Shown: one piece after another, positions 1-17,221 of the stretch | Layout: each line of letters begins with the position of its first letter | Numbering within the stretch: position 1 is the first letter of the stretch | Assembly: GCA_030669305.1 (NCBI GenBank) | Contig: DAOVDU010000007.1 | Span: 1 to 45,881 of the forward strand | Direction of reading: 5' to 3' | DNA from: Candidatus Aminicenantota bacterium | Lineage (GTDB): Bacteria > Acidobacteriota > Aminicenantia > Aminicenantales > Aminicenantaceae | Length of the DNA stretch: 45,881 nucleotides | The notes under the pieces: generated by a model | The model's input: only the letters and a program-made list of their open reading frames with translations | The model's database searches: none | What the model was told of the DNA's origin: nothing | Translations under genes and position numbers: made by a program

Positions 1-33
1 AGGTAAAGATGTTAGAACAACAATGGTGGCAAG

Positions 34-727: not shown

Positions 728-1015
728 ATGAAAGTGATACCTTTACACGACAGAGTACTTCTTAAAAGGTTAGAAGAACAAGAAGTTAAGAAAGGCGGAA
801 TAATAATTCCCGACACAGCCAAAGAAAAACCCCAAGAAGCAAAAGTTGTAGAAGTGGGGAAAGGCCGCGTGACAGAAGATGGGAAGGTTATTCCTCTCGA
901 AGTTAAGAAAGGTGAAAAAGTTCTTATCGGTAAATTCAGTGGTACAGAGGTAGAAATTGGTGGAGTTGAATATGTTATCGTTCGTGAGGAAGAGATTTTA
1001 GCTAAAATCACCTAA
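728..1015 (+). CDS. groES: Co-chaperonin GroES (Hsp10)
   Basis: The 95-residue protein has normal length for the heptameric lid of the GroEL chamber. It begins with the family's characteristic [19 protein letters not shown] and contains the mobile-loop region around residues 17-32 ([18 protein letters not shown]), then GKGRV and the C-terminal [13 protein letters not shown]. The ribosome binding site GTGAGGAG lies 8 nt before the ATG. It is the first gene of the groES-groL operon, separated from groL by 20 bp, and is placed under a sigma-54 promoter at 647-663. It acts in the cytoplasm with GroEL in ATP-driven protein folding. Confidence 0.97.
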
Positions 1016-1023
1016 TTTTGTGA

Positions 1024-2649
<1,626 letters not shown>

Positions 2650-2742
2650 ATAGAATGGGTTGAGTGTAAAAATTACAAGGAGGAATTTGGATCAGGATCT
2701 TCTTGGATTGATTATAAATATATAGTTCCAAAAGATGATTAA

Positions 2743-2817
2743 ATGAGCAAGTTATTTTTTGCTCTTGTATTGATCGCTGCAGGTCCGACTTTTTTGTTTA
2801 TCACAAGATCAAGATGA
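2743..2817 (+). CDS. Possible tiny membrane peptide (24 aa)
   Basis: ATG-initiated ORF, too short for the ORF track, encoding MSKLFFALVLIAAGPTFLFI followed by TRSR: one hydrophobic helix with positive ends, the layout of a small single-span membrane peptide. No strong ribosome binding site stands directly before it, though an AAGGAGG motif lies about 60 bp upstream. It is the first of several tiny ORFs between groL and the sulfatase-fold gene. An overlapping inverted repeat (GAGCAA/TTGCTC, 2745-2764) could instead be a weak groESL terminator. Real status uncertain. Confidence 0.3.
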   Translation: MSKLFFALVLIAAGPTFLFITRSR

Positions 2818-2874
2818 GGGAGAGAAAGATTTTCATTTTCGGATCGATGATTTTTTGAAAGGAGGTAAAAGCTA

Positions 2875-3090
2875 ATGAAGGAAAAAGCTAAGATAGAACA
2901 TCCGGTAATTGAACGAGTCTTAGAAGAAATAAGCATCCTTGACAAAATCAACCGGCAATGGAAGGAAGGGGCGATATCAGAATTTCAGTTCTCAAGCACA
3001 CTCGATCAACTCCTGATAAGACTCAAGAAATATCAGACTGAGTTAAAAGCGCCTGATCTTCAAAGGCTTCAACGAAAAAAGACTCAATGA
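2875..3090 (+). CDS. Small charged helical hypothetical protein
   Basis: A 71-residue protein with a very good ribosome binding site (AAAGGAGG, 8 nt before the ATG). The sequence is rich in Leu, Ile, Lys, Glu and Gln and looks like two amphipathic helices (about residues 9-30 and 39-65), compatible with a coiled-coil or small helical bundle. No signal peptide or known motif was seen and the family is not recognised. It opens the block of small genes 2.7-4.8 kb downstream of groESL. Confidence 0.55.
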   Translation: MKEKAKIEHPVIERVLEEISILDKINRQWKEGAISEFQFSSTLDQLLIRLKKYQTELKAPDLQRLQRKKTQ

Positions 3091-3131
3091 GTCTTTTCGA
3101 CCAATCGAAATGACTTTAAAGAGGCGAAAAC

Positions 3132-3227
3132 ATGAACACAAGAAAGGAAGCAAAGGAAGCATCTGAAAAGCTGGAAGATCTAGCGCTGGAGGAAGAGGAA
3201 GAGAAGAAAAGGAAGAAGAGGACATAG
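3132..3227 (+). CDS. Possible 31-aa charged peptide
   Basis: A short ATG-initiated ORF encoding an almost wholly charged peptide (KEAKEASEKLEDLALEEEEE then KKRKKRT). A weak AGAGG motif lies before the start. The acidic then basic run could form a single helix, but purine-rich DNA gives such peptides by chance. It is listed because it lies in line between neighbours of the small-gene block; confidence is low. Confidence 0.2.
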   Translation: MNTRKEAKEASEKLEDLALEEEEEKKRKKRT

Positions 3228-3292
3228 ATTAAAAGATTGAGAAAACATAAAACAGTTAAAAGACAGAAGAGAAAAGAAGAGGAGAAATAATT

Positions 3293-3433
3293 TTGAAGGA
3301 AATTAAATTGAAAAAATCATTGTTAATATGGATCATACTTTTAGCGCTTATCCTTTTCGTCTGCGTTTGCAACGAGATCATAGATCCAGGGGATCCATCC
3401 TTACGAATCAAGGAAGAGCGATGGAAAGAGTGA
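3293..3433 (+). CDS. Small single-span membrane peptide (46 aa)
   Basis: TTG-initiated ORF with a good ribosome binding site (AGAGGAG about 8 nt upstream), missed by the ORF track. The basic N-terminus (KEIKLKKS) is followed by the hydrophobic stretch LLIWIILLALILFVCVC and an acidic and basic tail NEIIDPGDPSLRIKEERWKE. It is therefore either an anchored membrane peptide or, since a Cys follows the hydrophobic stretch, a tiny lipoprotein. Its stop codon overlaps the likely start (3421) of the next gene by 13 bp, suggesting translational coupling. Function unknown. Confidence 0.4.
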   Translation: MKEIKLKKSLLIWIILLALILFVCVCNEIIDPGDPSLRIKEERWKE

Positions 3434-3933
3434 GAAGGAGGCCGCCGCTTGATCAAGATGTAGCGAGATCCATGGGAGCAACAAGCCTCCAGCAGATTAA
3501 AAAAAGCACACCAGAGACTTCGGGTCTTTTCAACTCCAATGTGATGATCTTTTATGATCGAATATCGAAAAGGATCATTCTAGGAGGGGAGGAGTTATGT
3601 GTTAAAAAAAGATTCATCTCTTTGAGAACTGTGGAAGCTACGGTTTTGAGAGAATTTCAAAAAGAGACTTCAGGAATCAAAAAGAGGCTCGCAGCAGCGG
3701 ATCTTTTATTTCTAAGAAAGATTATTTTGAGAAAGTTTGACCTGGAGACGATTGGAAAAATTCTGGGAAGCCTTGTTAAAAAGGGAATTCTGGAATGTGA
3801 AAAAATAATTATCCACGATCAAACCGTGGAAGTTTTCAAAATCAAACAGGAGATAAGAATGGCTAAAGTCGAAAAAAAATCCAAAGTGAAGAAGAAGAAA
3901 GAAAAAATCGAGAAGAATAAAAAGAAGAAGTAG
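3421..3933 (+). CDS. Lysine-rich winged-helix-like hypothetical protein
   Basis: The ORF is open from 3328, but the likely start is ATG 3421 (170 aa), preceded by AAGGAAG and overlapping the upstream membrane-peptide gene. The central part (about residues 75-135) has a helix, then DLETIGKILGSLVKKGILEC and a strand-turn-strand, resembling a winged helix-turn-helix. The last 30 residues are almost all Lys with some Glu and Val, a tail that would bind nucleic acid or be disordered. The N-terminal part is less convincing as protein. No family was recognised; a DNA-binding role is inference. Confidence 0.45.
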   Translation: MERVRRRPPLDQDVARSMGATSLQQIKKSTPETSGLFNSNVMIFYDRISKRIILGGEELCVKKRFISLRTVEATVLREFQKETSGIKKRLAAADLLFLRKIILRKFDLETIGKILGSLVKKGILECEKIIIHDQTVEVFKIKQEIRMAKVEKKSKVKKKKEKIEKNKKKK

Positions 3934-4111
3934 TTCAGATGCTGGGAGCGGTCAATTTTAGAAAAAGAGAATTTGAGAATCATGAGGGCATATTCTTTAA
4001 AGACTGCTCCTGGCAAATCTTCTTTGAAGGATGCAAAAAATTGAATGAATTTAAGCGGCAAAAAAAAGAGTGTCCTACCTTTCAATTTCCCCCTTTTGCT
4101 GATAAATGCCT

Positions 4112-4149
4112 AAGGCCGGTTGGCACTCTCCGGCCTTGCCGCTTTTTTT
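4112..4149 (+). terminator. Rho-independent terminator
   Basis: Perfect GC-rich inverted repeat AAGGCCGG (4112-4119) and CCGGCCTT (4130-4137) with a 10-nt loop, followed after GCCGC by seven T residues. It lies between the lysine-rich ORF and the next small gene and should end transcription from the left. Confidence 0.7.
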
Positions 4150-4165
4150 GAAAGGAAATGAGAGA

Positions 4166-4348
4166 ATGAAAAAGAAGACTTTTGACTTATTGAATGACTT
4201 ATTGAAGGAGTTTAAAAAGAGATGGTATCCTGCTCCTGACCTCCCCAAAATAGAGGATTTTATAGCCTGGTTAGAGAAGCAGGGCTATGAAATCAGAGAG
4301 AAGGAGAAAAATGAAGGCGACGGAAAAAAAGACCCCATTGACAATTGA
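4166..4348 (+). CDS. Small hypothetical protein (60 aa)
   Basis: The ORF is open from 4106, but the earlier start lies inside the terminator hairpin; ATG 4166 has a GAAAGGAAATGAGAG leader and is preferred. The protein is charged, with an N-terminal amphipathic helix, a YPAPDLPKIEDF segment and a Lys/Glu/Asp-rich tail. It overlaps the next gene by 38 bp, which suggests co-translation. It probably starts a three-gene operon (4166-4834). No family recognised. Confidence 0.5.
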   Translation: MKKKTFDLLNDLLKEFKKRWYPAPDLPKIEDFIAWLEKQGYEIREKEKNEGDGKKDPIDN

Positions 4349-4586
4349 AGACCTTGATATCCCTGGACTCCCAGGACGTGGGGGATTAGTCCTCGGACTA
4401 CTAAAAAATCTTATGCCAGGATTGACGCTCACTCCGAAAAAGCGGTATGCCTGGATTCAGGCTTTTAAAAAAATGGGGTCAGTAGAAATCAGCCGGATAA
4501 TCTATCTTAGCCAGGATGAGAAACGCTGTAGAAGAGCTATTGAAAAGGCCATTGAAAGGGAGGGGGAAATTCTCACAAAGGAGTAA
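4311..4586 (+). CDS. Small hypothetical protein (91 aa)
   Basis: Start ATG 4311 has AAGGAG 6 nt upstream and is preferred to the track start at 4287. The protein has a short Gly/Pro/Leu-rich section (DIPGLPGRGGLVLGLLKNLM), then a basic helical half (KKRYAWIQAFKKMGSVEISR and CRRAIEKAIEREGEIL). The second half might be a small helix-turn-helix. It overlaps its upstream neighbour and meets the next gene at TAATG (stop and start share bases). Function unknown. Confidence 0.5.
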   Translation: MKATEKKTPLTIEDLDIPGLPGRGGLVLGLLKNLMPGLTLTPKKRYAWIQAFKKMGSVEISRIIYLSQDEKRCRRAIEKAIEREGEILTKE

Positions 4587-4834
4587 TGATGGGAATAGCA
4601 GTAAAAAAGGAATACAAAAGCATCAAAGAATTAATAGAAAGAAATTTGGACATAAAAGAAGATGACCAAACTAAAATTCTGATTGCCGAGCTAAAAGGTG
4701 TAACTGAAAGGGGCTACTTCACGAAAAAATTCAAAAAAAGAGAAAATGAAATGGGACTGGTGAGCACTACTAGTTTTTTCCTGCCTATATCCAACTCTTT
4801 TTGGCTCATTTTTGCTTGCAAGTCCCTATTTTAA
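4586..4834 (+). CDS. Small hypothetical protein, possibly frameshifted
   Basis: The gene starts at the TAATG junction with the preceding gene, with AAAGGAG just upstream; a second ATG follows at once. Residues 1-52 are coherent (helical, Lys/Glu/Asp/Ile-rich, ending in ELKGVTERGYFTKKFKK). The last 30 residues (TTSFFLPISNSFWLIFACKS) are hydrophobic and look like a different reading context, so the gene may have lost its proper 3' end by a frameshift near the A-rich tract at 4728-4742. No family recognised. Confidence 0.4.
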   Translation: MMGIAVKKEYKSIKELIERNLDIKEDDQTKILIAELKGVTERGYFTKKFKKRENEMGLVSTTSFFLPISNSFWLIFACKSLF

Positions 4835-4852
4835 AAGGAAATAAAATGAGGA

Positions 4853-4922
4853 TGGTTAGGTGTGTTTTTTCCTCTCTACGCTTTTTGTCAAATAGCATTT
4901 TACCTCCATTTTTGCCTAACCA
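4853..4922. repeat. Inverted repeat in spacer before the sulfatase-fold gene
   Basis: TGGTTAGG at 4853-4860 is answered by CCTAACCA at 4915-4922, with 54 bp between. The spacer also contains a run of T. It may form a long stem-loop or be chance; no further signal was recognised in 4835-4947. Confidence 0.25.
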
Positions 4923-4947
4923 GCCTCAACTTTTATAAAAAGAGAAA

Positions 4948-7062
4948 ATGAAAAAAAAAGCGAACCATTTACTTATTTTTCTTGTATGCTTCTTTTTAAC
5001 TACCATCTGTCTGAATTCTAATAGTGATAGACTGAACGTTCTCGTTATAACCATAGATACACTGAGAGCGGATTGGTTGAGTTGTTACAACAGCAAAAAT
5101 TTGAAGACACCTAATACAGACAGCCTAGCAGAAAGAGGCGTATTATTTTCAAGGGCGTTTGCTAATACTTCAACCACTTTACCGTCCCATACAAATTTTT
5201 TTTTAGGAACAACCCCTTTACATCATGGAGTACATGAGAACTCAAATTTTATTGTGAGAGAAGAGTTTCTAACTCTTGCAGAACACCTTAAAGCACATGG
5301 TTATTCAACTGGTGCTTTTGTAGGTGCTTTTCCTCTTGATGCAAAATTTGGGCTTAATCAAGGATTTGACATCTATGATGATAATTTTCCCCGCCGTAAG
5401 TATTCTCAAAAGTTTTCGGGAGTAGAAAGGAAGGCTGAAATTGTGGTAGATAATGCCCTGGACTGGTTAAAGAGTCAGGAATCACTTTGGTTTCTCTGGA
5501 TTCATTGCTGGGACCCCCATGACCCATATGAACCCCCCGAACCATTTAAAACTCAATACGAAAAACATCCTTATAGTGGTGAGGTTGCTTATACTGATTT
5601 TGTCCTGGCAAAGCTTTTTGAATACCTAGAAGAAGAGAATTTATTCGATAACACTCTAATAATTTTTACCGGAGACCACGGAGAATCATTAGGTGAACAT
5701 GGAGAGAAAACTCATGGTTTTTATGCATATAATTCCACAATTTGGATTCCTCTTATTATCGTTTCTCCTGGAATTAGACAGGCACAGTCTGAACAGTATG
5801 TTAGTCATTTAGATGTGTTCCCGACTGTCTGTGATATCTTGAATATTGAAAAACCAACCATCCTTCAAGGAACATCTCTTTTTCCAATTTTAAAAGGAAA
5901 AAAGATTCCAAAGAAGCCTATATATTTTGAGTCTATGCATCCTTATTACAGTATAGGTTGGGGTTCATTAAGAGGATATATTTACAATAAAAAAAAGTTT
6001 ATTGACTCTCCCATTCCTGAGTTTTACTGTCTCAAAAAGGATTTTGACGAGCTTAATAATCTTGCAGAGAAAAAGAGATTAGACAAATATAGAAAAAAAT
6101 TAGGGACAATAATTAAAGAACAGTCCTTAGCAGAAAGTACAAAAGCAGAGAAAAAATTAGATAAAGAATCTTTGGATAAATTGAGGAGCTTAGGTTACGT
6201 TTCAAATTCTTATGGTTTAAGAAAGGAGAGCGTTAGTCCTGATAATGATATAAAAGTTCTACTTCCATTTTTTTACAAATCAGTAGAGGCTTTAGAGCTT
6301 TTTGAAGAAGGAAAAATCGAACAAGGATTAGAGCAGTTAAAGGAAGTTATCACAGAAAGGAAGGATGTCTCTATTGCTTATAACGATCTTGCGGTTCTGT
6401 ATAAAAGAATAGGCATGTCAAAAGAAGCTCTGGAAGTTTTAAAGCTCGGACTCAAGAATATTCCTTCGAGTTATCTAATTTTCAAAACTTATATTAATCA
6501 TCTCTTAGACGATAAACAGCATGATGAAGTTATCAAGGCTATTGGTGAAAGAAATTTTCGAGAAATGAACTTCGACCCTGAAATATGGAATTTTTTAGCT
6601 ATCTCTTATTGTGAGAAAGGTGACTTTGAAAAGGCCATTGAGATTTTTGAAAAGGCTCTCTTATTAGACAAAAAATCTCCGGTTCTTTTTACTAATATTG
6701 GAGAAGCTCAACTTTTGCTCTCTTTAAAAATAAACGATTTACGAATTTTTCAGAAATGTTTAGAGAGTTTTCAAAAAGCAATCGAGTTTGATTCAAACTA
6801 TGCTCTGGCATACAGCGGCTTAGGTCAAACATATCGGCAAGCTGGCGATTTAGAAGGGGCAGTTTACGCTTTTGAGAAGGCATTAGAGCTAGAACCAAAT
6901 CTTGACAAAGCACTCTTTTTCTTAGGTTTGAGTTATTTTGACAAAGGCGATAAGGAGAAAGCTATTAATTCCTTAAATCTATTTAAGGAAAAATTTTATC
7001 ATCTTCAGTCTGATTCAAATAAACAAAACTTGGATGTTTTAATTCAGAAGTGTAAAGAATGA
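4948..7062 (+). CDS. Sulfatase-fold (alkaline phosphatase superfamily) protein with C-terminal TPRs
   Basis: A 704-residue exported protein. An N-terminal signal or anchor (residues 5-24) precedes a sulfatase-type catalytic domain (about 28-380): ITIDTLRADW provides a metal Asp at 37, and TGDHGESLGEHG near 241-252 supplies further metal ligands. At the nucleophile site the sequence is TLPSH (Thr77), not the CxPxR of formylglycine sulfatases, so it more likely acts as a phosphatase, phosphodiesterase or phosphotransferase. Residues about 410-700 form TPR units (for example DFEKAIEIFEKALLLDKKSP and DLEGAVYAFEKALELEPN). Such sulfatase-TPR fusions are common in Aminicenantes-like genomes. Substrate unknown. 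Confidence 0.85.
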   Translation: MKKKANHLLIFLVCFFLTTICLNSNSDRLNVLVITIDTLRADWLSCYNSKNLKTPNTDSLAERGVLFSRAFANTSTTLPSHTNFFLGTTPLHHGVHENSNFIVREEFLTLAEHLKAHGYSTGAFVGAFPLDAKFGLNQGFDIYDDNFPRRKYSQKFSGVERKAEIVVDNALDWLKSQESLWFLWIHCWDPHDPYEPPEPFKTQYEKHPYSGEVAYTDFVLAKLFEYLEEENLFDNTLIIFTGDHGESLGEHGEKTHGFYAYNSTIWIPLIIVSPGIRQAQSEQYVSHLDVFPTVCDILNIEKPTILQGTSLFPILKGKKIPKKPIYFESMHPYYSIGWGSLRGYIYNKKKFIDSPIPEFYCLKKDFDELNNLAEKKRLDKYRKKLGTIIKEQSLAESTKAEKKLDKESLDKLRSLGYVSNSYGLRKESVSPDNDIKVLLPFFYKSVEALELFEEGKIEQGLEQLKEVITERKDVSIAYNDLAVLYKRIGMSKEALEVLKLGLKNIPSSYLIFKTYINHLLDDKQHDEVIKAIGERNFREMNFDPEIWNFLAISYCEKGDFEKAIEIFEKALLLDKKSPVLFTNIGEAQLLLSLKINDLRIFQKCLESFQKAIEFDSNYALAYSGLGQTYRQAGDLEGAVYAFEKALELEPNLDKALFFLGLSYFDKGDKEKAINSLNLFKEKFYHLQSDSNKQNLDVLIQKCKE

Positions 7063-7173
7063 GAGAAAATATCAAAATTCTCTGGTGGTAGATAAAGTGG
7101 GCTTTTTTTTGGGGTTTAATCCTTCTTCTGTTTTCTCTTTTTTAAATGCTAGGCTGTAATGAGGTAATAAAAC

Positions 7174-7434
7174 ATGGAGAGAACTCGCAAGATTCTTAAA
7201 GCCTACGCAGACTACTGCACTAAATATAACATAGTCTACCAGCATCCCCACGATATCGATCTCGAAAAACACGGAGGCAAAACTTATTTTGTTTTAAGGA
7301 GCATCAAAGGTCTGTTAGCAGTGATCGATGGGGACTTTGATCAATCAAGCCTGTATCACCGTGGGAGGAGAGAAATAGACGGTCTCCGCTGCCTTGATCC
7401 GGATGACTGGCCGGAGACAATTAAAAACGATTAG
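7174..7434 (+). CDS. Small hypothetical protein (86 aa)
   Basis: A soluble, compact protein with mixed composition including Cys, His, Trp and Tyr and a C-terminal LDPDDWPE motif, which argues for a real folded product. GAGGTAA lies about 10 nt before the ATG. It lies only 5 bp upstream of the CDP-alcohol phosphotransferase and could be its operon partner. No family recognised. Confidence 0.55.
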   Translation: MERTRKILKAYADYCTKYNIVYQHPHDIDLEKHGGKTYFVLRSIKGLLAVIDGDFDQSSLYHRGRREIDGLRCLDPDDWPETIKND

Positions 7435-7439
7435 AGAAA

Positions 7440-8180
7440 TTGGTTAACACAATGACTATAAAATTTTTTAAGGCGTATAAATTATCAAAGCCGGCTGATG
7501 GGCTAATATCACGATATTTAAATCGCCGGCTATCAGCCCCTGTGGTTCGTGCTCTTCTCAAAAGAAACATAACGCCAAATCAGGTCACTATAGCAATTTC
7601 CTTGCTTAGTATTCCGATGTTGGTAGCTGGGATGTATGGATCTATCATAATTGTGGGAATCATTCTTCAGTTAGCTTCAGTTTTGGATGGTGTCGACGGA
7701 GAAATAGCTCGCACGAAATATCTTACTTCAAAGTTTGGAGCGCTGTTAGATACTGTCCTGGATTACTGGATTGATTCGCTTGGAATCCTTGCTTTAGGTC
7801 TTGCTCTTTTAAAAAGAGATATGCTGACGTCACCTCTGATTATTTCCTTGGTTACTTTTACGGTTGCTGTGCGTCTCATCAGCCAGTTTGTAGTTAAAAT
7901 GGCACTATGTGCAAAGCCTCATATTATTGCGGACACACGAGACGTAGTAACCTTCTTGATCTTTATTAGTTGTATTTTAACTGAGCTAATGGATTCATGG
8001 TGTCTTGTGGTAGCATTGCTGGCTATCAACGTGTGGCGGTTAGATAATATGATTTATCGACTTGTTGTTTCCTGGAAGACTACTTGTCCTTCATCGCAAT
8101 CTAAAGTTTTACCACAAACCCCATCTGGAATTTCTAGCGAAATAGCTTCAAAACCAATGAATATTTCAGAAAAAAAATAA
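7440..8180 (+). CDS. CDP-alcohol phosphotransferase, DIPP-synthase-like
   Basis: A 246-residue integral membrane enzyme with the complete CDP-alcohol phosphotransferase signature D83-x2-DG-x2-AR-x8-G-x3-D-x3-D108 (DGVDGEIAR then GALLDTVLDYWID). It should transfer an alcohol phosphate from a CDP-activated donor. The N-terminal GLISRYLNRRLSAPVV and NITPNQVT stretches resemble the synthase half of the bifunctional IPCT/DIPPS enzyme that makes di-myo-inositol-phosphate phosphate. The next gene resembles the cytidylyltransferase half. The start is TTG 7440 or ATG 7452; neither has a strong ribosome binding site. An inositol-containing lipid product is an alternative. Confidence 0.8.
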   Translation: MVNTMTIKFFKAYKLSKPADGLISRYLNRRLSAPVVRALLKRNITPNQVTIAISLLSIPMLVAGMYGSIIIVGIILQLASVLDGVDGEIARTKYLTSKFGALLDTVLDYWIDSLGILALGLALLKRDMLTSPLIISLVTFTVAVRLISQFVVKMALCAKPHIIADTRDVVTFLIFISCILTELMDSWCLVVALLAINVWRLDNMIYRLVVSWKTTCPSSQSKVLPQTPSGISSEIASKPMNISEKK

Positions 8181-8270
8181 AAATGGCGGTTAACAAAAAT
8201 AGCAATTTCTTGGCTTTTAAATCCCAATGAAAAGCTAAAGAAAAAATCCCCTAAAGGGAAGCTAATATAG

Positions 8271-9008
8271 ATGGAAGCCCTAATCATCGCGGCAGGAAGA
8301 GGAAGCAGATTAAATCGTCGCTTCTATCCTAAACCTTTGATTCCAGTTCTAAGACTCAGCCTCTTAGAACGCATCATCCTCAGCTCTAAGCTAGCCAGCA
8401 TAAATCGGTTTAAAATTGTGGTTGGATATATGGCTGACATAATAATAAAAAAAATTGGCAGCGGTGATAAGTATGATGTTCATATAGACTATATTTTTAA
8501 TCCGGATTGGGAAAGAAGTAATGGCATCTCAGTTTACAGAGCCAAGGATTACTTCAAAGAAAATTTCATCCTCCTGATGTCGGATCATCTTTTTGATGAT
8601 TCAATTTTGATAAAACTACAGCAAATTGATCTAGAAGAAGACTGCTGCGTTCTTTGTGTAGACTACAAACTAAACAGCGATCATTTCAATATCTATGATG
8701 CAACCAAGGTCTGGGTAGAAAATGGAAGAGTAAAACGAATAAGTAAACATCTCGAACAATTCAATGCCATTGATGCTGGAATGTTCCTCTGTTCTCCGGT
8801 CATTTTTGATGCGTTAGGGGAAAGCATTTCGCAGGAAGAATATTCACTTTCGGCAGGTAATCAAGTGCTCTCCAATTGGGGCAAGCTGAAGATACTTGAT
8901 ATTAGCGATCATTTCTGGATAGATGTCGATGATAAAGAATCTCTCCGGAAGGCAAAAAAAATGCTAATGAAAAGGGGTGACGGCAGTAAAACAAAGTTTA
9001 TTCGGTAA
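8271..9008 (+). CDS. Nucleotidyltransferase, inositol-1-phosphate cytidylyltransferase-like
   Basis: A 245-residue soluble NTP-transferase-fold enzyme. The N-terminal LIIAAGRGSRLN and YPKPLIPV are the nucleotide- and phosphate-binding motifs, and MSDHLFDD near residue 103 holds the metal-binding Asp. ATKVWVENGRVKRISKHL and FNAIDAGMF resemble the family's IPCT members (CTP:inositol-1-phosphate cytidylyltransferase). It would make CDP-inositol for the membrane transferase just upstream. The pair is separate here, in the order synthase then cytidylyltransferase. Other sugar- or alcohol-phosphate substrates remain possible. Confidence 0.78.
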   Translation: MEALIIAAGRGSRLNRRFYPKPLIPVLRLSLLERIILSSKLASINRFKIVVGYMADIIIKKIGSGDKYDVHIDYIFNPDWERSNGISVYRAKDYFKENFILLMSDHLFDDSILIKLQQIDLEEDCCVLCVDYKLNSDHFNIYDATKVWVENGRVKRISKHLEQFNAIDAGMFLCSPVIFDALGESISQEEYSLSAGNQVLSNWGKLKILDISDHFWIDVDDKESLRKAKKMLMKRGDGSKTKFIR

Positions 9009-9165
9009 AAAAGTTAAATTTTGGTTTATTGATCGCGATGGTCGTTATGAATTGACGGGAGTTGTTACGGAACACATCGTCGCTGAAAATTGTCTGACAG
9101 TTCAGGGCGATAAGAAAGGATTGAAATATTATCTTGGCATAGATAGGATTCAAGTCATTCAATAG
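8977..9165 (+). CDS. Small beta-rich hypothetical protein
   Basis: A GTG-initiated 62-residue ORF overlapping the end of the cytidylyltransferase gene by 32 bp, with AAAAGG just before the start. The sequence alternates polar and hydrophobic residues (KKVKFWFIDRDGRYELTGVV and GLKYYLGIDRIQVI) as in a small Sm-like or SH3-like barrel. Family not recognised. Overlap and coherent composition favour a real, co-translated gene. Confidence 0.45.
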   Translation: MTAVKQSLFGKKVKFWFIDRDGRYELTGVVTEHIVAENCLTVQGDKKGLKYYLGIDRIQVIQ

Positions 9166-9327
9166 CTAGCAAAAATTCAAAGACCAAAAGAAGACCAAAA
9201 AATGGCAAAAGAAAGGAGGAGGTTGCCTTCCAAATTTCTTTCTGCATCAACCTACTCGTATTAGTCGGGTTTTAGGCGTTCTTCCCGGCTCGCCGCCAAA
9301 TCTAGGAATAAGTAATAAGCAAATGAT
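9166..9327 (+). other. Degraded spacer, possible coding remnant
   Basis: No intact gene. A stop-bounded reading frame running from about 9220 to 9384 encodes a protein-like segment (TRISRVLGVLPGSPPNLGIS, then NKQMIAAIKKASPLLYQLID) without a credible start. A strong AAAGGAGGAGG motif at 9212-9222 stands in front of it, so this may be the remnant of a frameshifted gene. Confidence 0.25.
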
Positions 9328-9421
9328 AGCGGCAATCAAAAAAGCATCGCCTCTCCTGTATCAGCTCATTGACTCCCTCTGCTAATACCCCTAAGTCGGT
9401 TTGATGCTTCCGGCTGCCGCT
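9328..9421 (+). ncRNA. Candidate structured RNA before a terminator
   Basis: Three nested helices can form: AGCGGCA (9328-9334) with TGCCGCT (9415-9421), AAGCATC (9342-9348) with GATGCTT (9403-9409), and TATCAGC (9359-9365) with GCTAATA (9381-9387, one mismatch). An intrinsic terminator follows within 10 nt. The pattern suits a small RNA or leader, but no known family was recognised and a coding remnant overlaps it. Confidence 0.25.
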
Positions 9422-9427
9422 GAATGG

Positions 9428-9485
9428 GGCCCCGGTGCTTCCTGCCTTTCTTCGATTTTCTCCACCTTAGCCCGGGGCCTTTTTT
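9428..9485 (+). terminator. Terminator-like hairpin with T tract
   Basis: GGCCCCGG (9428-9435) pairs perfectly with CCGGGGCC (9472-9479) and is followed by six T residues. The loop is long (36 nt), so it is either an intrinsic terminator with an extended stem-loop or the end of the candidate RNA just upstream. Confidence 0.5.
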
Positions 9486-9643
9486 ATCTTTTCCAAGGCA
9501 GGTGCAGTAGCCAAAAAAAATTCATATTGACAAATATGTTAAAACAGGCGCGGAGACGAAACAACAGCAGAACGAAACGGTCCCGGCAGGCAGGTTTATT
9601 TGTCCAGCGTGTAGAAAACAAAAGAATTAGAATTCCAATAACC

Positions 9644-9693
9644 CTGGCCTGTCACGCCGGAGGTCGCGAGTTCAAGTCTCGTCGGCCCCGCCA
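9644..9693 (+). pseudogene. 3' half of tRNA-Asp(GTC), probable attachment-site scar
   Basis: The anticodon arm CTGGC-CTGTCAC-GCCGG (GTC at 9651-9653), variable loop AGGTC, T arm GCGAG-TTCAAGT-CTCGT, acceptor strand CGGCCCC, discriminator G (typical of tRNA-Asp) and encoded CCA are all present. The expected 5' acceptor GGGGCCG and D arm are absent upstream. Tyrosine integrases that use the anticodon loop of tRNA genes leave exactly such 3' fragments at the distal end of an integrated element. The intact tRNA-Asp would then lie to the left, outside the window. Bases 9694-9914 downstream show no gene. Confidence 0.75.
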
Positions 9694-9914
9694 ATTCCAA
9701 CAAGATTCTTGCATCGAAATCAACAACTTACAAGCAATCTTTATCTAGGCCGGTTAATTCAGGTTATGTCATTTTAAGGCATTTTTAGTGACATTTTACT
9801 GACCGAATTACTGACCGGAAATTCAAAGGGGATAAGCCCATATAAATTAGTACATTTCTGAAAGATTTTGTGCACACTTAGTCGCCGCCTGTTGTTAGCA
9901 AAGGGGGGATGTGT

Positions 9915-10418
9915 TTATTTAATGATATCAGCTACAGCTGCGCTCATTGAAGAAGGAAATGTTACGATTACAACTCTTTTAAAAGCTATAATCCAATCTG
10001 CATTCCATGGAGTCCTTTGTATTAACGTTAATAAAATCGCAACAACTATGAATGAAACAAAATAAGTTGAACAAACTCTTTTTATGAATTCACCTAAATG
10101 TTCTTTTATTTTACCTTTGTAATAATTGTAATATACAAACATAGAGATGAACAGAAGAGATAGCAAAAGAAGACCAACAATGTTTGGTAACGGCAGTGTT
10201 TCTCCTAAATTCCATGTTTCTTCTGTGAAGCCAACAGGAACTGCTAAAATAGCTGCACCAATTATAACCTGAAGTACATCCTTTGGATGAAATTCAACCA
10301 TTAAAGGGGATATAATCTTATGGAGAATCTTCCCTTTTTCATCATGGACAGTAACAATCTCCTTTAATTTTCCTGCTATCCGAATAACTTCCCTTTTTGT
10401 TTTAACATCTTTAGACAT
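9915..10418 (-). CDS. DUF2391 family integral membrane protein
   Basis: A 167-residue protein with a soluble N-terminal part (about 1-45) containing IVTVHDEKGKILHKIISP, then hydrophobic segments near 48-63, 82-97 and 117-135. The C-terminal FKRVVIVTFPSSMSAAVADI is the hallmark of DUF2391/TIGR02587 putative integral membrane proteins. Function is unknown in the family. The gene stands alone, facing the tRNA-Asp scar, with no close partner. Confidence 0.75.
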   Translation of the reverse strand: MSKDVKTKREVIRIAGKLKEIVTVHDEKGKILHKIISPLMVEFHPKDVLQVIIGAAILAVPVGFTEETWNLGETLPLPNIVGLLLLSLLFISMFVYYNYYKGKIKEHLGEFIKRVCSTYFVSFIVVAILLTLIQRTPWNADWIIAFKRVVIVTFPSSMSAAVADIIK

Positions 10419-10841
10419 TTTTTTGTTTTATGTTTTGTGAATTCTATTTTTGGTTTGCAACAATTTTCTCTATTTTTTATTTGATTTAAATTAGCTGTAT
10501 TCCTTCTGACTTATATCACAGGAAAAAATTGAGGTCAAATGCGAAAAGACGAAAGAGTAATGCTATAAAAGGAAGGAAGATTGGGAAAAAAGCTCAAAAT
10601 AAGAATGGAAAAATTCTGATGAGATAATAGAAACTCAAATAATCTGCAAGTAACAGCATGAATATCTTATATAAATAAAGTGCATTATAAAAGACTAATC
10701 TGCGGTCGTTCGGGCTTTGGATTCTCTGTTTCGATATATTATAATTAGATTGATTATCCAAGTAAATGATGAATTTTTTTCTGTTTTCATTTAACTTAAT
10801 GCCTGTATTTAAAAGATATTGTTTAAATACTGAAATATAAA
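10419..10841. other. AT-rich spacer without recognisable gene
   Basis: 423 bp with stops in all frames and no tRNA, terminator or clear repeat. It presumably carries the promoter of the DUF2391 gene on the minus strand; no convincing -35/-10 pair was identified. Confidence 0.4.
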
Positions 10842-11915
10842 TTACTGAATAACAATGTTTGCTGTTTCAAAACCTTTGTTATAGGCCCACCTGTATTTTT
10901 TGAATTCAAAAACCCCCATATTTTCGAGCATGGGCGTTATAATTATTTCATCGCCTGATAGTTCTGGAGCCAGCCCCCCTCTCCTGGTCAGAATGTATAA
11001 GAGATTGTTGATTATTGAGAGCACATCTTTCTCATCCCTTACCGGATAAACCTCTTTGCCGACTAATTTTACAGTATCTACAAATTCTTGCGACAGGTTT
11101 AACAAGAAATGGGAAGTGTTCATACGGGAGGTCATATCAGTTGCGGCGGAAACATCGGAAATGACAATCTTCAGCTCACCCTGGAAGTCATTTTTATTGA
11201 TCATCCTGGCAACATCTACACAGAAATTATCAATCACTCCACCATCGACAAGAATATAATCTTCATAGCTTAAAGGATCAAAGAGAAACGGAATGGCTGA
11301 GGATGCAAGAACCAGTTCAGTCAGATCTCCGGTTGAGAATATACATCTTTCACACCTTTTCACATCCGTAGCATTGATATATAAGGGGATTTTTGTATTT
11401 TCAAACTCATTGAACGGCAGATATTTAGTGAAAATGGACCTCATAATTTGGGTCATGGTCCTTTGTGAAAGAGAACGTAAATGAGACAATTTGAAAAACG
11501 TTTTTTCTTCTTTTGTAAATATCTCAAGCATCTCATCTGGAGAAATGCCCGTACTGTATGCGGCTCCAACTACAGAACCGGCAGAAGTGCCCACGATGAA
11601 TGCCGGTTTTATGCCGTAGCTTTCTAGCGCTTTTAATACTCCCGCATGTGCAGCGCCTCTTGCTCCACCCCCGGAAAGCACAAGAGCTACCTTTTCTCCT
11701 AATACATTCCTGTCGATCGGCTGATTGGTTTTCTCATAATTTCTGTCAGAATAATAATAGAAATCGTGCACGTAATCCTTGAGCTTTTTTGCTGTAAAAA
11801 TTTCTTTTTCAATGGAATCCTGCAACTTTTTTAGATATTTGGGAATATTTTTGTCCTTAAATGAAAGATATGCGGTATTTAAATAGTCTAAATTCCTTCT
11901 ATATAAGCTTTTCAT
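10842..11915 (-). CDS. Patatin-like phospholipase
   Basis: A 357-residue cytoplasmic lipid acyl hydrolase. The N-terminal 70 residues are a charged helical extension. The patatin domain follows with the oxyanion motif SGGGARG at 81-87, the nucleophile elbow GTSAGS (Ser111) and the catalytic Asp in VDGGVIDN (Asp224), so the Ser-Asp dyad is intact. It is the last gene of an apparent minus-strand operon phasin-like/UbiB-like/patatin, 16 bp behind the kinase-like gene. The context suggests storage-lipid or membrane-lipid turnover; the exact substrate is not known. Confidence 0.9.
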   Translation of the reverse strand: MKSLYRRNLDYLNTAYLSFKDKNIPKYLKKLQDSIEKEIFTAKKLKDYVHDFYYYSDRNYEKTNQPIDRNVLGEKVALVLSGGGARGAAHAGVLKALESYGIKPAFIVGTSAGSVVGAAYSTGISPDEMLEIFTKEEKTFFKLSHLRSLSQRTMTQIMRSIFTKYLPFNEFENTKIPLYINATDVKRCERCIFSTGDLTELVLASSAIPFLFDPLSYEDYILVDGGVIDNFCVDVARMINKNDFQGELKIVISDVSAATDMTSRMNTSHFLLNLSQEFVDTVKLVGKEVYPVRDEKDVLSIINNLLYILTRRGGLAPELSGDEIIITPMLENMGVFEFKKYRWAYNKGFETANIVIQ

Positions 11916-11931
11916 TCCGTTATTTCATCCA

Positions 11932-13626
11932 TTATAAATTTCCTGAGCGAAAAATGGCAAAGAGAAGTCTCAGGCCCATGAAAACTGCCACCATAAAACC
12001 GCCGAGGCCAATGACAGGGATACCAAAGAACAAGGGAGGTGTTTGCGAGAGGACAATCAGGGCTGAGCCTATAATTAATGCAGCTGCAATTATGGCAAAG
12101 GCCAGACGATTACTGACCTGATCCTGCTTTGCAATGAATGGTTCCAAACCCTTATGTTCAAATTTTATTTTCATTTCGCCTGTTTTCAACAAAGAAAACG
12201 TATTTCTGATTTCTTGTGGAAATTCTTGGAATAGAGTAAAAAATTCAAAAATGCTTTTTTTCCACTTGTTTGCTAGAGTGTAGGGGCTAAATTTTTTTAG
12301 AATAATTTCTTTTATAAATGGTTGGATTTGCTCAACAGCATTAAAGTCCGAATCAAGAGACCTTCCTGTGCCTTCCAGATAAACCAAGGCCTTGTTGAGT
12401 AAAAATAAGTCCGGTGGTATCTTGAGGTGATGTTTTTCAACAAAATAGAGTGCCTGCCGAAATACCCTTTTTAATTCAATCTGTTTAAGGGGTACGCCAT
12501 GATATTGGTCTAACATCTCCCATGTGTCTAGTTTGAATTCTCGAAGATCGACTTTTTCAGCCGGATAGATTTTTAAAAACCAGCGTGTTGTCTCTGAAAC
12601 ATCCTTATCAATAAATGCCTTCACCAGCGATGCCAGATCATTTTTTACTTCCTCGTCAATCCGGCCCATCATGCCATAATCTAAAAAACAGACGATATTA
12701 TCAGGCAAAATAAAAATATTACCTGGATGCGGATCACCGTGGAAGAAGCCGTGCTCAAAAATTTGCTTTGAAATCAGCTTTGCTCCTCTCGTTGCAATCA
12801 GTTTGCAGTCATAGCCATACGTTTCTAGTTTTTTTACTTCTGATATTTTTATGCCATCAATATATTCCATGGTGAGCACTTTTTCTGTGGAATAATCGTG
12901 GTAGACGTGGGGAATATGGATTGTAGGGTCATCTTTAAAATTTTTAGCAAATCGTTCAATGTTTGAGGCTTCAAGCGTATAATCCAGTTCTTTTGCGATG
13001 TTTTTAGCAAATTCTTTTACAATACCAACTGGGTCATACCCTTCTGCTTCAATAATGTGTTTTTGTATTAAATTAGCAAGATACAACATGATCTCTAAGT
13101 CAACTTCTATTATGCGGCAGATATTTGGCCGCTGTACCTTTACGGCCACCATATCTCCATTTCTTAACCAGGCACAATGCACCTGCCCTAATGAGGCAGC
13201 CGCAATAGGAATTTCTTCAAACTTGGAAAATATTTTCTCTAATGGTTGCCCCAATTCGGTCCTAATTACCTCTTTTGCTTCAACGATAGGAAAAGGCGGA
13301 ACTTTGTCTTGGAGTCTCTCTAATTCTTCCACTAGGGTTGGAGGTACTAAGTCCGGTCTTGTGCTCAGTAGTTGTCCTAGTTTAACAAAGGTAGGACCCA
13401 ACTCTTCCAAAGCCAGACGGACACGTTCATAACGGGGCAATCCCATTATTTCGGTTTTTTTTCTTTTTCTAAAAAGACGAAATCCTCTTTCTATTACTTG
13501 ATAGAGGTGAAGCTTGGTAAGAATATCGCTAAATCCGTACTTGACTAAAACCCTTAAGATTTGCTGGTAGCGACGAAAATGGCGGTGAGTGCGGGTAACT
13601 GTATGTATCTGCCTAAGTGAAACCAT
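11932..13626 (-). CDS. ABC1/UbiB/AarF family atypical kinase
   Basis: A 564-residue protein of the UbiB (ADCK) atypical kinase family, with all hallmark motifs: KLGQ at 82-85, the Ala-rich loop AAASLGQVH at 142-150, the lysine of VAVKVQRP (Lys163), HGDPHPGN at 296-303 and LDYGMMGR around Asp316. Two hydrophobic helices near the C-terminus (about 507-555) anchor it to the membrane, as in UbiB. Family members support isoprenoid quinone or prenyl-lipid handling. It is 8 bp from the phasin-like gene upstream. No quinone-biosynthesis gene is seen nearby. Confidence 0.9.
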   Translation of the reverse strand: MVSLRQIHTVTRTHRHFRRYQQILRVLVKYGFSDILTKLHLYQVIERGFRLFRKRKKTEIMGLPRYERVRLALEELGPTFVKLGQLLSTRPDLVPPTLVEELERLQDKVPPFPIVEAKEVIRTELGQPLEKIFSKFEEIPIAAASLGQVHCAWLRNGDMVAVKVQRPNICRIIEVDLEIMLYLANLIQKHIIEAEGYDPVGIVKEFAKNIAKELDYTLEASNIERFAKNFKDDPTIHIPHVYHDYSTEKVLTMEYIDGIKISEVKKLETYGYDCKLIATRGAKLISKQIFEHGFFHGDPHPGNIFILPDNIVCFLDYGMMGRIDEEVKNDLASLVKAFIDKDVSETTRWFLKIYPAEKVDLREFKLDTWEMLDQYHGVPLKQIELKRVFRQALYFVEKHHLKIPPDLFLLNKALVYLEGTGRSLDSDFNAVEQIQPFIKEIILKKFSPYTLANKWKKSIFEFFTLFQEFPQEIRNTFSLLKTGEMKIKFEHKGLEPFIAKQDQVSNRLAFAIIAAALIIGSALIVLSQTPPLFFGIPVIGLGGFMVAVFMGLRLLFAIFRSGNL

Positions 13627-13634
13627 TTATTCTG

Positions 13635-13952
13635 CTATTCTGCAATTTTCTTTTTCAACTCTTCGATTTTTCCTTCCAGTTTAGCAAGGTGTTGAGTGAT
13701 GGCAATAAACTCCTTTTTGCTTGGAACATCGATTCTCTTTATGGCATTATAAACCAGTGTTTCTGCCTTCTTTTCAAACTCCTGCTCGGCTTCTTTTGAT
13801 TTTTTCAATATTTCTTCAACAAAACCCTTCCCTTCTTTTTCAGAAAGCTCTCCCTTCTTAACTAACTCTTTTGCCAATTCCTCCGCCTTTTCTTTGGTGA
13901 TTAAGGCCAAGCCAAGACTTGTGTAAAACCCTTTTTTTAGTAATTCTAACAT
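13635..13952 (-). CDS. Phasin-like / granule-associated helical protein
   Basis: A 105-residue highly charged helical protein resembling the polyhydroxyalkanoate granule-associated (phasin) superfamily: an N-terminal amphipathic part LLKKGFYTSLGLALITKEKA, a KELVKKGELSEKEGKGFVEE segment and a C-terminal coiled coil (AITQHLAKLEGKIEELKKKI). It has an ideal ribosome binding site (AAAAGGAGGA, minus strand). It is the first gene of the operon with the UbiB-like kinase and patatin. In this family such proteins are often found with UbiB-like genes in organisms without PHA synthase, so granule binding is not assured. Confidence 0.7.
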   Translation of the reverse strand: MLELLKKGFYTSLGLALITKEKAEELAKELVKKGELSEKEGKGFVEEILKKSKEAEQEFEKKAETLVYNAIKRIDVPSKKEFIAITQHLAKLEGKIEELKKKIAE

Positions 13953-14189
13953 TTGATTCCTCCTTTTCTATTTTTAATATAACACACTAAAATCTCATAA
14001 AACAATAAAAATATAGTAAATCATTGGCTGCTATTAGTAAATCTATTTATTGATTACCACTATCTTTTCATTGACTTGCGAGCAGAATAGTATCCAGATG
14101 TTTTTTAATGCGCAGGCAATGATTTTCAAACAACATGAAATGGGCATCATGGTTCAATATTTTCCATGATTTTTTCCTCTTTAAATGTT

Positions 14190-14227
14190 ATGTTAAAAAA
14201 ATTTTTATTAGAGGGGAAATATTCCCC
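14190..14227 (-). terminator. Terminator of the radical SAM gene
   Basis: GGGGAA-ATA-TTCCCC (14213-14227) is a perfect hairpin; on the minus strand it is followed by TCTAATAAAAATTTTTTT. It lies 65 nt beyond the stop of the radical SAM gene. The remaining spacer (13953-14189) is AT-rich with no gene and holds the promoter region of the phasin-like operon. Confidence 0.55.
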
Positions 14228-14291
14228 TTATGGACGAACCTCCCTTGGAAACTGTTTAAGCTGATTAAGCTGCTTTCTCCTTCTCAAAGCG

Positions 14292-15734
14292 TTACCTTTC
14301 TGGTCCGATGTATTCCTTCTCCCAGATGGGGTTGGTGAGACGGGCCACCTCATCGCCACAGGCAACTAGCCCTTTGTAATAAGACTGATCTTTGAGAGCT
14401 TTTTCTGCTTCCTGATCTGCGGGTTTTGCTCCTGTAGCATCAATAATCTCTCTAGCCTCTCGTTGATGGTCCTTAGAAATACAGGGAATAATTTGATTTC
14501 CCACCTCATGGGCGGGCTTCATAAAGCTGTATTCCCGCTGCCACTTCCTGATAGCCTGAAAAAATGGATTCATCAGGACAGTGTTCAGGTCTCCTCCTCC
14601 CCGGTAGACCTGTTTGATATTATCAACAGTATAAGGATAAAAGGCACAGGGCAGGCAGTTCCCGTTCCAATCGATATAGAAGTATCCGCCGGGACGGCCT
14701 CCTGAAATACAGCCGTTGGCAACCGCTCCACTGTTCCAGAAGTCGGCAATGAACAGGGCTTTCTCCCGGATCAGATGCTGCTCCCGCTCGAACATCCACT
14801 TGCGCTGTTCGGGAGTGACCATAAGATTAAGGGTATAGCTCCGCCCGATGGGCATGTACTGGAAGATCCAGCCGTAAACGGCACCCTGCTTTTCGAAATA
14901 GAAATCCATAAACTCATCGCTGAGGACAAGCTCAGCATTGTTCCGTGTGGCTGTGATAGAAATCCCGAAAGGAACACCATTATTCCTCAGATTTTTAAAA
15001 GCCTTGAGAATCCGCTTATGAACGCCTTTTCCTCTTCGAGCATCAGTCTCTTTTTCAAATCCTTCTACTGAAATCGCCGGAGTAATATTTCCCGCCTTGG
15101 CCATCCGTTGCGCCATCTTCTCATCAATGAGCGTCCCGTTGGTGTACATGAGGAAGTATTGATCACTGTGTCGGGCAGCCATATCGATAAGGTCTTTTCC
15201 GTCACTTCTCCACATGAGTGGTTCTCCTCCTGAAATTACGGTGAAGTGCGAGCCCCAAAGTTCCTTCTTCTCCGTCAGGATGCGATCCACCATATCATAG
15301 TCCAATTTCTCTGCATTGGCAGAGGAACTGGAAGCATAGCACCCAGTACACCGGAGATTGCACCGTTTGGTGGGGCTGATGAGCAAAAAGCCAGGAGCTT
15401 TGAATCCGTAAGCTTCTTTGAAGGCTCTTATTGTGGCATTGCTCTCCAAAAGCACTTTGCCTACCAGAATCTTTATTAGACCTCTACGAACAGAAGGCGA
15501 AACCCTTTTGTTCTCCATAGCCCTGTTGATGGAATGAAGCATATTCCTTAGCATGTAGTACTTGTCTTCCTGGCTCCTTATGGGGCTGCCGCTGTTGTTT
15601 TTTTCGACTAAGGTATGGTAGATTTTCTTTTCCCCTGCCTTCAAGGCTAGCCTTCGAATAGCATCATTGGCTAAAACGTTGTTAGCCAGAGTAAGGGAAG
15701 GCATCGCGAGCATTGATTTGACTTGAGATTGCAT
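14292..15734 (-). CDS. Radical SAM protein with SPASM-like C-terminus
   Basis: With the preferred start (ATG 15734) this is a 480-residue cytoplasmic enzyme. CNLRCTGC (Cys125, 129, 132) binds the 4Fe-4S cluster that cleaves S-adenosylmethionine; FTVISGGEPLM is the SAM-binding GGE motif. C-terminal cysteines (NGCISGGRPGG, NGNCLPCAFYP and IPCISKDH) look like an extra-cluster SPASM/twitch region. A second in-frame ATG at 15797 adds 21 basic residues and also has a good ribosome binding site (AAAGGAG). The gene follows a TetR regulator in the same direction and is probably controlled by it. Substrate unknown. Confidence 0.88.
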   Translation of the reverse strand: MQSQVKSMLAMPSLTLANNVLANDAIRRLALKAGEKKIYHTLVEKNNSGSPIRSQEDKYYMLRNMLHSINRAMENKRVSPSVRRGLIKILVGKVLLESNATIRAFKEAYGFKAPGFLLISPTKRCNLRCTGCYASSSSANAEKLDYDMVDRILTEKKELWGSHFTVISGGEPLMWRSDGKDLIDMAARHSDQYFLMYTNGTLIDEKMAQRMAKAGNITPAISVEGFEKETDARRGKGVHKRILKAFKNLRNNGVPFGISITATRNNAELVLSDEFMDFYFEKQGAVYGWIFQYMPIGRSYTLNLMVTPEQRKWMFEREQHLIREKALFIADFWNSGAVANGCISGGRPGGYFYIDWNGNCLPCAFYPYTVDNIKQVYRGGGDLNTVLMNPFFQAIRKWQREYSFMKPAHEVGNQIIPCISKDHQREAREIIDATGAKPADQEAEKALKDQSYYKGLVACGDEVARLTNPIWEKEYIGPER

Positions 15735-15817
15735 GTTAGTAACCTCCTTTTTGATTATTTTTATTTTTTTTAATCTGATTGTGGGTTTAATAACCATTAT
15801 ATTCTCCTTTCATTTAT

Positions 15818-15844
15818 ATCGACCATATCAGTTCTCTGGTCGAT
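15818..15844. promoter_or_regulatory. Inverted repeat, candidate TetR operator
   Basis: ATCGACC (15818-15824) and GGTCGAT (15838-15844) form a perfect 7-bp dyad with a 13-bp centre, between the TetR gene and the radical SAM gene. The same GGTCGA half-site recurs upstream of the TetR gene, supporting recognition by this regulator. Confidence 0.5.
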
Positions 15845-15863
15845 TAAAGGTAAAAAAATATAG

Positions 15864-16439
15864 TTACCTTTTTTCAATACCCTTAAACAAAATATGCATA
15901 AATTGGTTGGCACTGCGTTCGAGATCCAATACATCCTTTTCCACTGTCCATGGATATTCTAATCCTTTAAGCAATAAAATGATCGATTCTGCTGCAAGCT
16001 TGGTATCTTTGATCTTAAAAACTCCTTTTTCCACACCTTCGTCCAGAAGATCTCTCACTGTTTGAATTTCTCTTTTCAAATACTCACGGCGTGTTTCCTC
16101 TATAAAACTATAGTGTTGCAAATAATCATCTGTCAGAGCACTGTAGTAGTTATTCAGTTCCTTTAAATGCCGAAATCGCGTTTTAACAAACGCGCAAAGT
16201 TTACCCTGAGGGGTATTCTCGTTATTTAATGCCTGCTGAATTTTCTCCTGTAGAGTATTGCTTTCTTTTTGAATGACTTCTGCAAAGATATCTTCTTTAC
16301 TTTTGAAGTAATGATAAATTGTACCTTTGCCTATTCGAGCCAGTTTGGCAATCTCATCAACTGTAGTCTTGACTAAACCAAACCGTGAAAATAAAGCCTT
16401 AGAAACTTTAAGAATAACCTTTCGTTTATCAATCTGCAT
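15864..16439 (-). CDS. TetR family transcriptional regulator
   Basis: A 191-residue protein with the TetR helix-turn-helix at residues 9-55: FSRFGLVKTTVDEIAKLARI followed by GKGTIYHYFKSKEDIF. The C-terminal helical domain would bind an unknown ligand. It is upstream of, and codirectional with, the radical SAM gene, so the two probably form a regulatory pair. Dyads built on GGTCGA lie on both sides of it and suggest autoregulation plus control of the radical SAM gene. Confidence 0.9.
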   Translation of the reverse strand: MQIDKRKVILKVSKALFSRFGLVKTTVDEIAKLARIGKGTIYHYFKSKEDIFAEVIQKESNTLQEKIQQALNNENTPQGKLCAFVKTRFRHLKELNNYYSALTDDYLQHYSFIEETRREYLKREIQTVRDLLDEGVEKGVFKIKDTKLAAESIILLLKGLEYPWTVEKDVLDLERSANQFMHILFKGIEKR

Positions 16440-16465
16440 TTTTTGACTTTACCTTTCCTTATGTA

Positions 16466-16479
16466 TTCGACCAATCGAC
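16466..16479. promoter_or_regulatory. Candidate TetR autoregulatory operator
   Basis: TTCGACCAATCGAC (minus strand GTCGATTGGTCGAA) lies 27-40 bp upstream of the TetR start and shares the GGTCGA half-site with the dyad at 15818-15844. Its position just below the promoter fits self-repression. Confidence 0.4.
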
Positions 16480-16503
16480 TACAATCGTTTTACAGTCAAT
16501 TAT

Positions 16504-16532
16504 AATTTAATATCTATTTGGCCCTTTGTCAA
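16504..16532 (-). promoter_or_regulatory. Putative sigma-70 promoter of the TetR gene
   Basis: On the minus strand TTGACA (16527-16532) is followed by an AT-rich -10 region (TTAAAT or TAAATT about 16-17 bp downstream). The -10 match is weak, so the exact start is uncertain. Confidence 0.35.
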
Positions 16533-16829
16533 GTCTTTTTTGAAAAATGTCAATGCAAAGCTAAAAAATTAGGGATCACTCCTTGACAATAAACAATTTA
16601 GTGAACCACAATTTTTAAAGTTGTGTGATTACTTAGAATAATTGAGCTGTAAATACACCCATTTCCCCTATGGCATAATCAATGTGGGAAAACCTGCTTT
16701 CTGATATGCGAAATGAGTTCAAAACATTTAATCAATGAAGATTTGAAAATGGCATGTGAATAAAATCAGATTAAGGATAGTAATTCTAAGTAGAAAGAAG
16801 AATGATAAAAAATCAGTCACGATTGCCTG

Positions 16830-16874: not shown

Positions 16875-17221
16875 GGGGGCGAACTGGATTCGACGGAGAT
16901 AATGAAACAGAGGTTGCATGTCGAGGCTCCACCCACCTCGTTAAAAAGGTGGAAAAAACTAAGTGCAGAACCACTGCCACTTGCTGCCTAAATAGTAGGC
17001 ATGCCGTTTCTCTTGCGCTTTCCTGCAGCGCTTGAGAGGCGTCGACAAGCAGGATAGCAAGTCAGGCCCGCCCTGAGCCTGGTAAGCGAAAAAACATCAG
17101 GACTGGTTCCATGGTATCTTTCTTCTTCAGAAGCCGTGGAACGAGATTTGAGAAGAGGATATACATGTAGAGACTTTCTGTTGAATGTCTTCGGACGCGG
17201 GTTCGATTCCCGCCGCCTCCA
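16875..17221 (+). ncRNA. ssrA: Transfer-messenger RNA (tmRNA)
   Basis: The 5' end GGGGGCGAACTGGATTCGACGG and the 3' end ACGCGGGTTCGATTCCCGCC-GCCTCCA are the conserved tRNA-like termini; GGGGGCG pairs with CGCCTCC (one G-T) to form the acceptor stem, discriminator A at 17221, and CCA is not encoded. The tag reading frame starts at GCA 16965 and encodes AEPLPLAA followed by TAA 16989-16991, giving an Ala-Ala C-terminus for proteolysis. The tag is short compared with the 10-residue E. coli reading frame. tmRNA rescues stalled ribosomes together with SmpB. Confidence 0.95.

Follow-up and report, generated by a model that had tools for sequence, protein, structure and literature searches.

Three described systems come closest to the locus analysed here: the Islander type A tRNA islands, which have an anticodon-centred site (PMC4383910), CIMEs and tandem accretion (PMC5704250), and the ssrA islands of Dehalococcoides, which target the 3′ end of ssrA and use a CcrB-like integrase (PMC3146451). 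The locus shares with type A islands an intact tRNA gene upstream, a displaced 3′ fragment further down the same strand, identity that starts from the anticodon arm, and an empty site in relatives (PMC4383910). With CIMEs and accretion it has in common serial segments without integration or transfer genes, bounded by att-type repeats (PMC5704250), and with the Dehalococcoides islands the stacking beside ssrA, the lack of an integration module in several islands and a strain-variable cargo (PMC3146451).

The window, a stretch of 45,881 nucleotides, is the entire contig C104 of a 2.06-Mb Ca. Aminicenantes genome in 122 contigs (G000; other G numbers denote relatives, and C numbers contigs). The relevant features, in window coordinates unless a contig is named, are as follows.

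C108:8271-15334: left part of segment E1.
1–9639, plus strand: right part of E1, with a second groESL, unknown small genes, a sulfatase-TPR protein, and a CDP-alcohol phosphotransferase and nucleotidyltransferase (the inositol-phosphate pair); it lies between tRNA-Asp and tmRNA.
9640–9693, plus strand: 3′ part of tRNA-Asp from the anticodon arm to CCA, read as an att-type scar at the junction of E1 and E2 (48/48 identity with the C108 gene from 9646; no tRNA called).
9694–9836, plus strand: D, an apparent element-type arm region behind the scar (same sequence after the intact tRNA-Asp in C108 and G023:C405 and after 3′ halves of other tRNAs in G060 and G023:C287).
9783–9817, plus strand: three direct repeats, TTTTAGTGACA, TTTTACTGACC and AATTACTGACC, putative integrase arm-type sites (repeat scan and 22-bp pattern search).
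9640–16657, plus strand: segment E2, with DUF2391, patatin, ABC1 kinase, phasin-like, radical SAM and TetR genes (similarity to G036:C194; same right end in G005).
16875–17221, plus strand: tmRNA (ssrA), the first conserved gene to the right of the insert.

Positions 9640–9693, whose start is also given as 9644, match tRNA-Asp, beginning where the D stem ends and running to CCA. The intact tRNA-Asp(GTC) of the same genome (G000:C108:8193-8270) agrees with 52 of these 54 bases and matches the last 48 nt (9646–9693) without a mismatch. ARAGORN called no tRNA at the scar, where the 5′ half is missing, and the Rfam tRNA model reached 19.2 bits at 9624–9683, below the gathering score of 29. A search within the G000 genome matched the scar region to C108 with E = 6e-63, and the reversed-pattern control gave zero matches; these two results exclude a chance match to tRNA-Asp. 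The similarity between the window and C108 runs ~115–120 bp beyond CCA, with lower identity there. Both in the scar and in relatives, identity with the intact gene begins at the edge between the anticodon stem and the D stem. A third tRNA-Asp 3′ half was seen at G000:C6:288-341, on the minus strand near the contig end, after tRNA-Pro and tRNA-Arg; the sequence behind it contained neither D nor arm repeats.

C108 ends with exactly the 141 bases that open the window, and such end overlaps are typical of neighbouring contigs in a k-mer assembly. In addition, G009:C123 is colinear at 97% with the stretch from C108:13332 through window 649, across the join. The overlap and this colinearity place the intact tRNA-Asp on the strand of the scar, ~16.6 kb further upstream, by a join drawn from the overlap and one relative (G009) rather than from reads.

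In G003, the gene order at this site is citrate synthase, lemA, htpX, tRNA-Asp, 65 bp, tmRNA, amidase and germane. The spacing from tRNA-Asp to tmRNA is 62 bp in G006 and 212 bp in G030, and it measures 1.4–3.9 kb in G014, G025, G013, G034, G029, G040, G045 and G009. In G000, the left half of the conserved order is found on C108 and the right half starts with the tmRNA at window 16875, leaving 23.8 kb between the two RNA genes. This interval is inserted DNA, most probably ~24 kb of foreign segments placed one after another. The cargo is mostly 87–97% identical to other genera, and the core genes flanking the insert are mostly 69–84% identical. These observations bear out much of the sequence-only reading, which had described a tRNA-Asp-like 3′ half running to CCA with no 5′ half (as the 48-nt identity, the missing ARAGORN call and the sub-threshold Rfam score confirm), had predicted an intact tRNA-Asp upstream on the same strand (present on C108), and had proposed comparison with a relative lacking the segment, which revealed an uninterrupted site in G003, G006 and G030. 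Its suggestion that some or all of 0–9.6 kb is an island was right in kind, as the whole of that stretch, groESL and the inositol pair included, falls inside the insert, but too small in extent, since the insert begins on C108 and runs to ~16,657.

Region D, directly behind the scar, is ~130–200 bp long, and weaker similarity to G023:C287 extends to about 9890. The same sequence stands after the intact tRNA-Asp in C108 and in G023:C405, behind an Arg-like 3′ half (C12) and a Val-like 3′ half (C41) in G060, whose tRNA types were judged by eye on the anticodon loop, and behind a degenerate tRNA-like end in G023:C287. Strong matches to D are present in 3 of 119 genomes, and the tRNA-Asp of most relatives has no D behind it. 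The repeats in D are 11–13 bp apart in the repeat scan, and a 22-bp pattern derived from them, with ≤1 mismatch allowed, has only 5 occurrences in 148 genomes, each of them next to a tRNA 3′ sequence. In several relatives, repeat pairs of a different spelling lie 83/94 or 72/83 bp past the tRNA. Repeats in such a layout are arm-type sites of tyrosine integrases, and we infer the same role for the repeats in D. A cognate integrase for D, sought through the repeat motif, was not found among the integrase loci examined. Because D, with its arm-like repeats, follows the scar as well as the intact gene and the 3′ halves of other tRNAs, the scar is best read as an internal junction, the seam of E1 and E2, behind which a second element begins rather than the chromosome.

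E1 comprises 16.6 kb, from C108 8271 to window 9639, flanked on the left by tRNA-Asp and D and on the right by the scar and D. From C108:8573 to window 2751, it matches G009:C123 in two blocks of 94–97% nucleotide identity, with groESL at 88%, as against 69–84% for the protein-coding flanks at the tRNA-Asp locus. In G009, this E1-like DNA is on a different contig from the contiguous tRNA-Asp–tmRNA locus. The groESL of E1 is a second copy, and the other copy in G000, 80% identical, is on C59. The C108 copy of D is cut off after its second repeat, and between that copy and the E1 cargo, at C108:8471-8493, 22 bp agree with a tRNA-Leu gene on C107 except for one mismatch; they may be left over from a further element that targeted a tRNA. 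Together, this tRNA-Leu-like relic and the boundary of the cargo (C108:8573) show E1 itself to be mosaic, and the cut D together with the relic makes the insert more mosaic than two clean elements. Two genes at window 7440–9008 resemble the halves of NF041135 (bifunctional inositol-phosphate cytidylyltransferase/DIPP synthase) in reverse order, phosphotransferase first, with scores far under the cut-off. This inositol pair fixes no boundary, because it is adjacent in most public relatives with none of the window's other genes nearby. A nucleotide search with 9010–9646 in 119 relatives returned only the first 134 bases in G023 and short weak matches.

E2 is 7.0 kb long. Positions 11630–16657 match G036:C194 in two blocks at 87–88% nucleotide identity, and the core flanks, compared with G003 and G022 (genus of G036), are mostly at 69–84%. 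In G036, the similarity to E2 stops 7 bp short of a further tRNA-Asp 3′ half with its own arm-like repeat pair behind it, so that G036 appears to be stacked too. The same right end of E2 is found in G005, joined directly to the region before its tmRNA; no decayed tRNA 3′ half was found between E2 and ssrA in G000. Within the radical SAM gene, 240 bp (window 15487–15726) are 99.6% identical to G000:C107:1-240, which represents either a partial second copy or an assembly branch.

Family scans of the larger genes detected no integrase, conjugation or phage gene in the 23.8-kb insert. Matches to PF00589 in G000 occur only at window 36526 (Xer-type), on C58 (Xer-like, 298 aa) and on C26. Ten proteins scanned for phage structural genes yielded only one weak PHROG match of unknown function, in the patatin-like protein, so that an integrated prophage finds no support in them. 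An integrase relic in 9010–9639 was rejected, as no significant match emerged from tblastn with five integrases and shuffled alignments; base-by-base comparison of the sequence before the scar with the tail of the G011 integrase gave 19/35 (p ~0.001 before correction), which is suggestive and was not counted as evidence.

Relatives retain what is missing here. With the start of the tRNA-Asp 3′ half numbered as in this analysis, the integrase gene ends 26 bp before it in both G021 and G002 and 14 bp before it in G011. The 3′ half of G002, followed by tmRNA and amidase, is a textbook right end, and an arm-bearing intact tRNA-Asp is located on another contig. In G021 and G002, the integrase gene contains at its end the repeat pair that is also found in the arm beside the intact tRNA-Asp, and repeats of the TGTCACAT type are putative arms in the attP of this integrase system. 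The only G000 integrase of a fitting kind (G000:C26:34922-36361, minus strand) ends immediately ahead of a tRNA-Ala(GGC)-like 3′ half, which is followed by the repeats CCATAATACTC. In the C26, G021 and G002 proteins, an HTH_17 (excisionase-type) domain is fused to Phage_integrase. Other arrangements of tRNA fragments were observed in relatives: Gln-like then Arg-like 3′ halves ~150 bp apart in G029:C5, with arm-like repeats after each; an intact Asp, its arm and an Arg-like 3′ half stacked ~150 bp apart in G021:C78, with arm-like repeats; and, at G011:C70:192238-192274, a chimeric tRNA-like sequence combining a different 5′ half, a GAT-type anticodon loop and a tRNA-Asp 3′ end. In G012, a single contig, a tRNA-Asp 3′ half with an arm (C1 near 3,022,878, minus strand) is 1.66 Mb from the intact gene and in opposite orientation; an integrase follows 2.6 kb further down, and this displaced half reflects either a secondary-site insertion or an inversion.

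The tRNA-Asp fragment is thus a genuine footprint of mobile DNA, as the sequence-only reading had it, a view supported by the intact tRNA upstream, the empty site in relatives and the integrases beside their Asp 3′ halves. That reading also took the scar for the island's boundary; the island holds, but the scar is an internal seam, since D comes next rather than chromosome. The integrase gene for which it recommended looking does not survive in the insert, and fitting kinds are found only in relatives and on C26 beside the tRNA-Ala 3′ half.

We consider it probable, at roughly 0.8, that the insert was made by repeated insertion between tRNA-Asp and ssrA by tyrosine integrases acting at the tRNA-Asp anticodon loop. 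Such enzymes would recombine in the loop and bring elements into the tRNA-Asp/ssrA spacer repeatedly, each element carrying a copy of the tRNA 3′ half and arm sites (D) at one end, and integration would restore an intact tRNA on the left and leave a 3′ half on the right. Two serial insertions would produce the order intact tRNA-Asp and D, E1 (16.6 kb), 3′ half and D, E2 (7.0 kb), ssrA; the integrase gene and the right-hand 3′ half of E2 would have been lost later. Owing to these losses, the segments would now be fixed, or mobile only through an integrase supplied in trans or recombination between repeats. E1 and E2 look like decayed, stacked tRNA islands of a CIME-like kind, because integrases adjoin the Asp 3′ halves in relatives and none is left in either segment. 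Against repeated insertion stand the lack of an integrase in the insert and of a right-hand 3′ half in E2, the mosaic make-up of the insert, and the contig join through an overlap and one relative.

A single insertion would be the simplest reading of one intact gene and one fragment, with the scar as the plain attR of one island and the genes at 9.7–16.7 kb as ordinary chromosome; the patatin–ABC1–phasin–radical SAM–TetR block is indeed also present in G002, G021 and G016 at 77–80%. This is quite unlikely, given that the D behind the scar also lies behind the intact gene and the 3′ halves of other tRNAs, that tmRNA comes directly after tRNA-Asp in G003 and G006, and that the G036 block ends at another Asp 3′ half. 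Instead of two integrations in succession, the seam could go back to a rearrangement, to homologous recombination of copies that carry D, or to an excision followed by reinsertion at another place. The Asp 3′ half with its flank in G012, displaced by 1.66 Mb and inverted, implies that such pieces do move, and the insert is mosaic, but scar, D, E1 and E2 occur in the expected order and orientation between the G000 tRNA-Asp and tmRNA, and we regard this origin of the seam as unlikely. D might also be conserved chromosomal sequence downstream of tRNA-Asp, with the scar a duplicated piece of the gene and its flank and no integration involved. In both G000 and G023 it does follow the intact gene, in the same position behind htpX; its absence there from most relatives, its position behind Arg-like and Val-like 3′ halves in G060 and its strong matches in just 3 of 119 genomes make this explanation very improbable.

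From a 50-base fragment, the analysis arrives at a gene-acquisition hot spot with precise bounds, in a group represented here mainly by metagenome-assembled genomes, and repeated insertion accounts for the second groESL, the inositol-phosphate pair and the patatin/ABC1/radical SAM block between tRNA-Asp and tmRNA, all common to other genera. More tentatively, and rather less likely than not, Aminicenantes may harbour an element family in which the conserved arm module D and the HTH_17–Phage_integrase fusion are paired with 3′ halves of Asp, Arg, Val, Ala and Gln tRNAs; if so, the target would change from one tRNA to another under a constant arm-binding system, and cargo segments without an integrase would build up beside ssrA. 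Searches that require an integrase would miss E1 and E2, which have lost theirs, and a tRNA half followed by arm-like repeats offers a usable signature.

Compared with anticodon-class islands, G000 shows the upstream intact tRNA, the 3′ fragment in the same orientation and the uninterrupted relative, and has no integrase gene in the insert. Unlike type A islands, its insert has no integrase gene and would be rejected by the Islander filters, and its fragment is internal to a stack (PMC4383910). The freedom from integration or transfer genes that marks CIMEs is found in the insert (family scans, larger genes), whereas the right repeat of E2 is gone in G000 and mobilisation by a neighbour is putative here (PMC5704250). 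In contrast to Dehalococcoides, the target in G000 is the tRNA-Asp just upstream of ssrA, and the enzymes of relatives are tyrosine integrases (PMC3146451). Since the integrase is lacking, the locus counts as an example in decay, stacked but working like the known kind, ordinary in principle and well resolved in detail.
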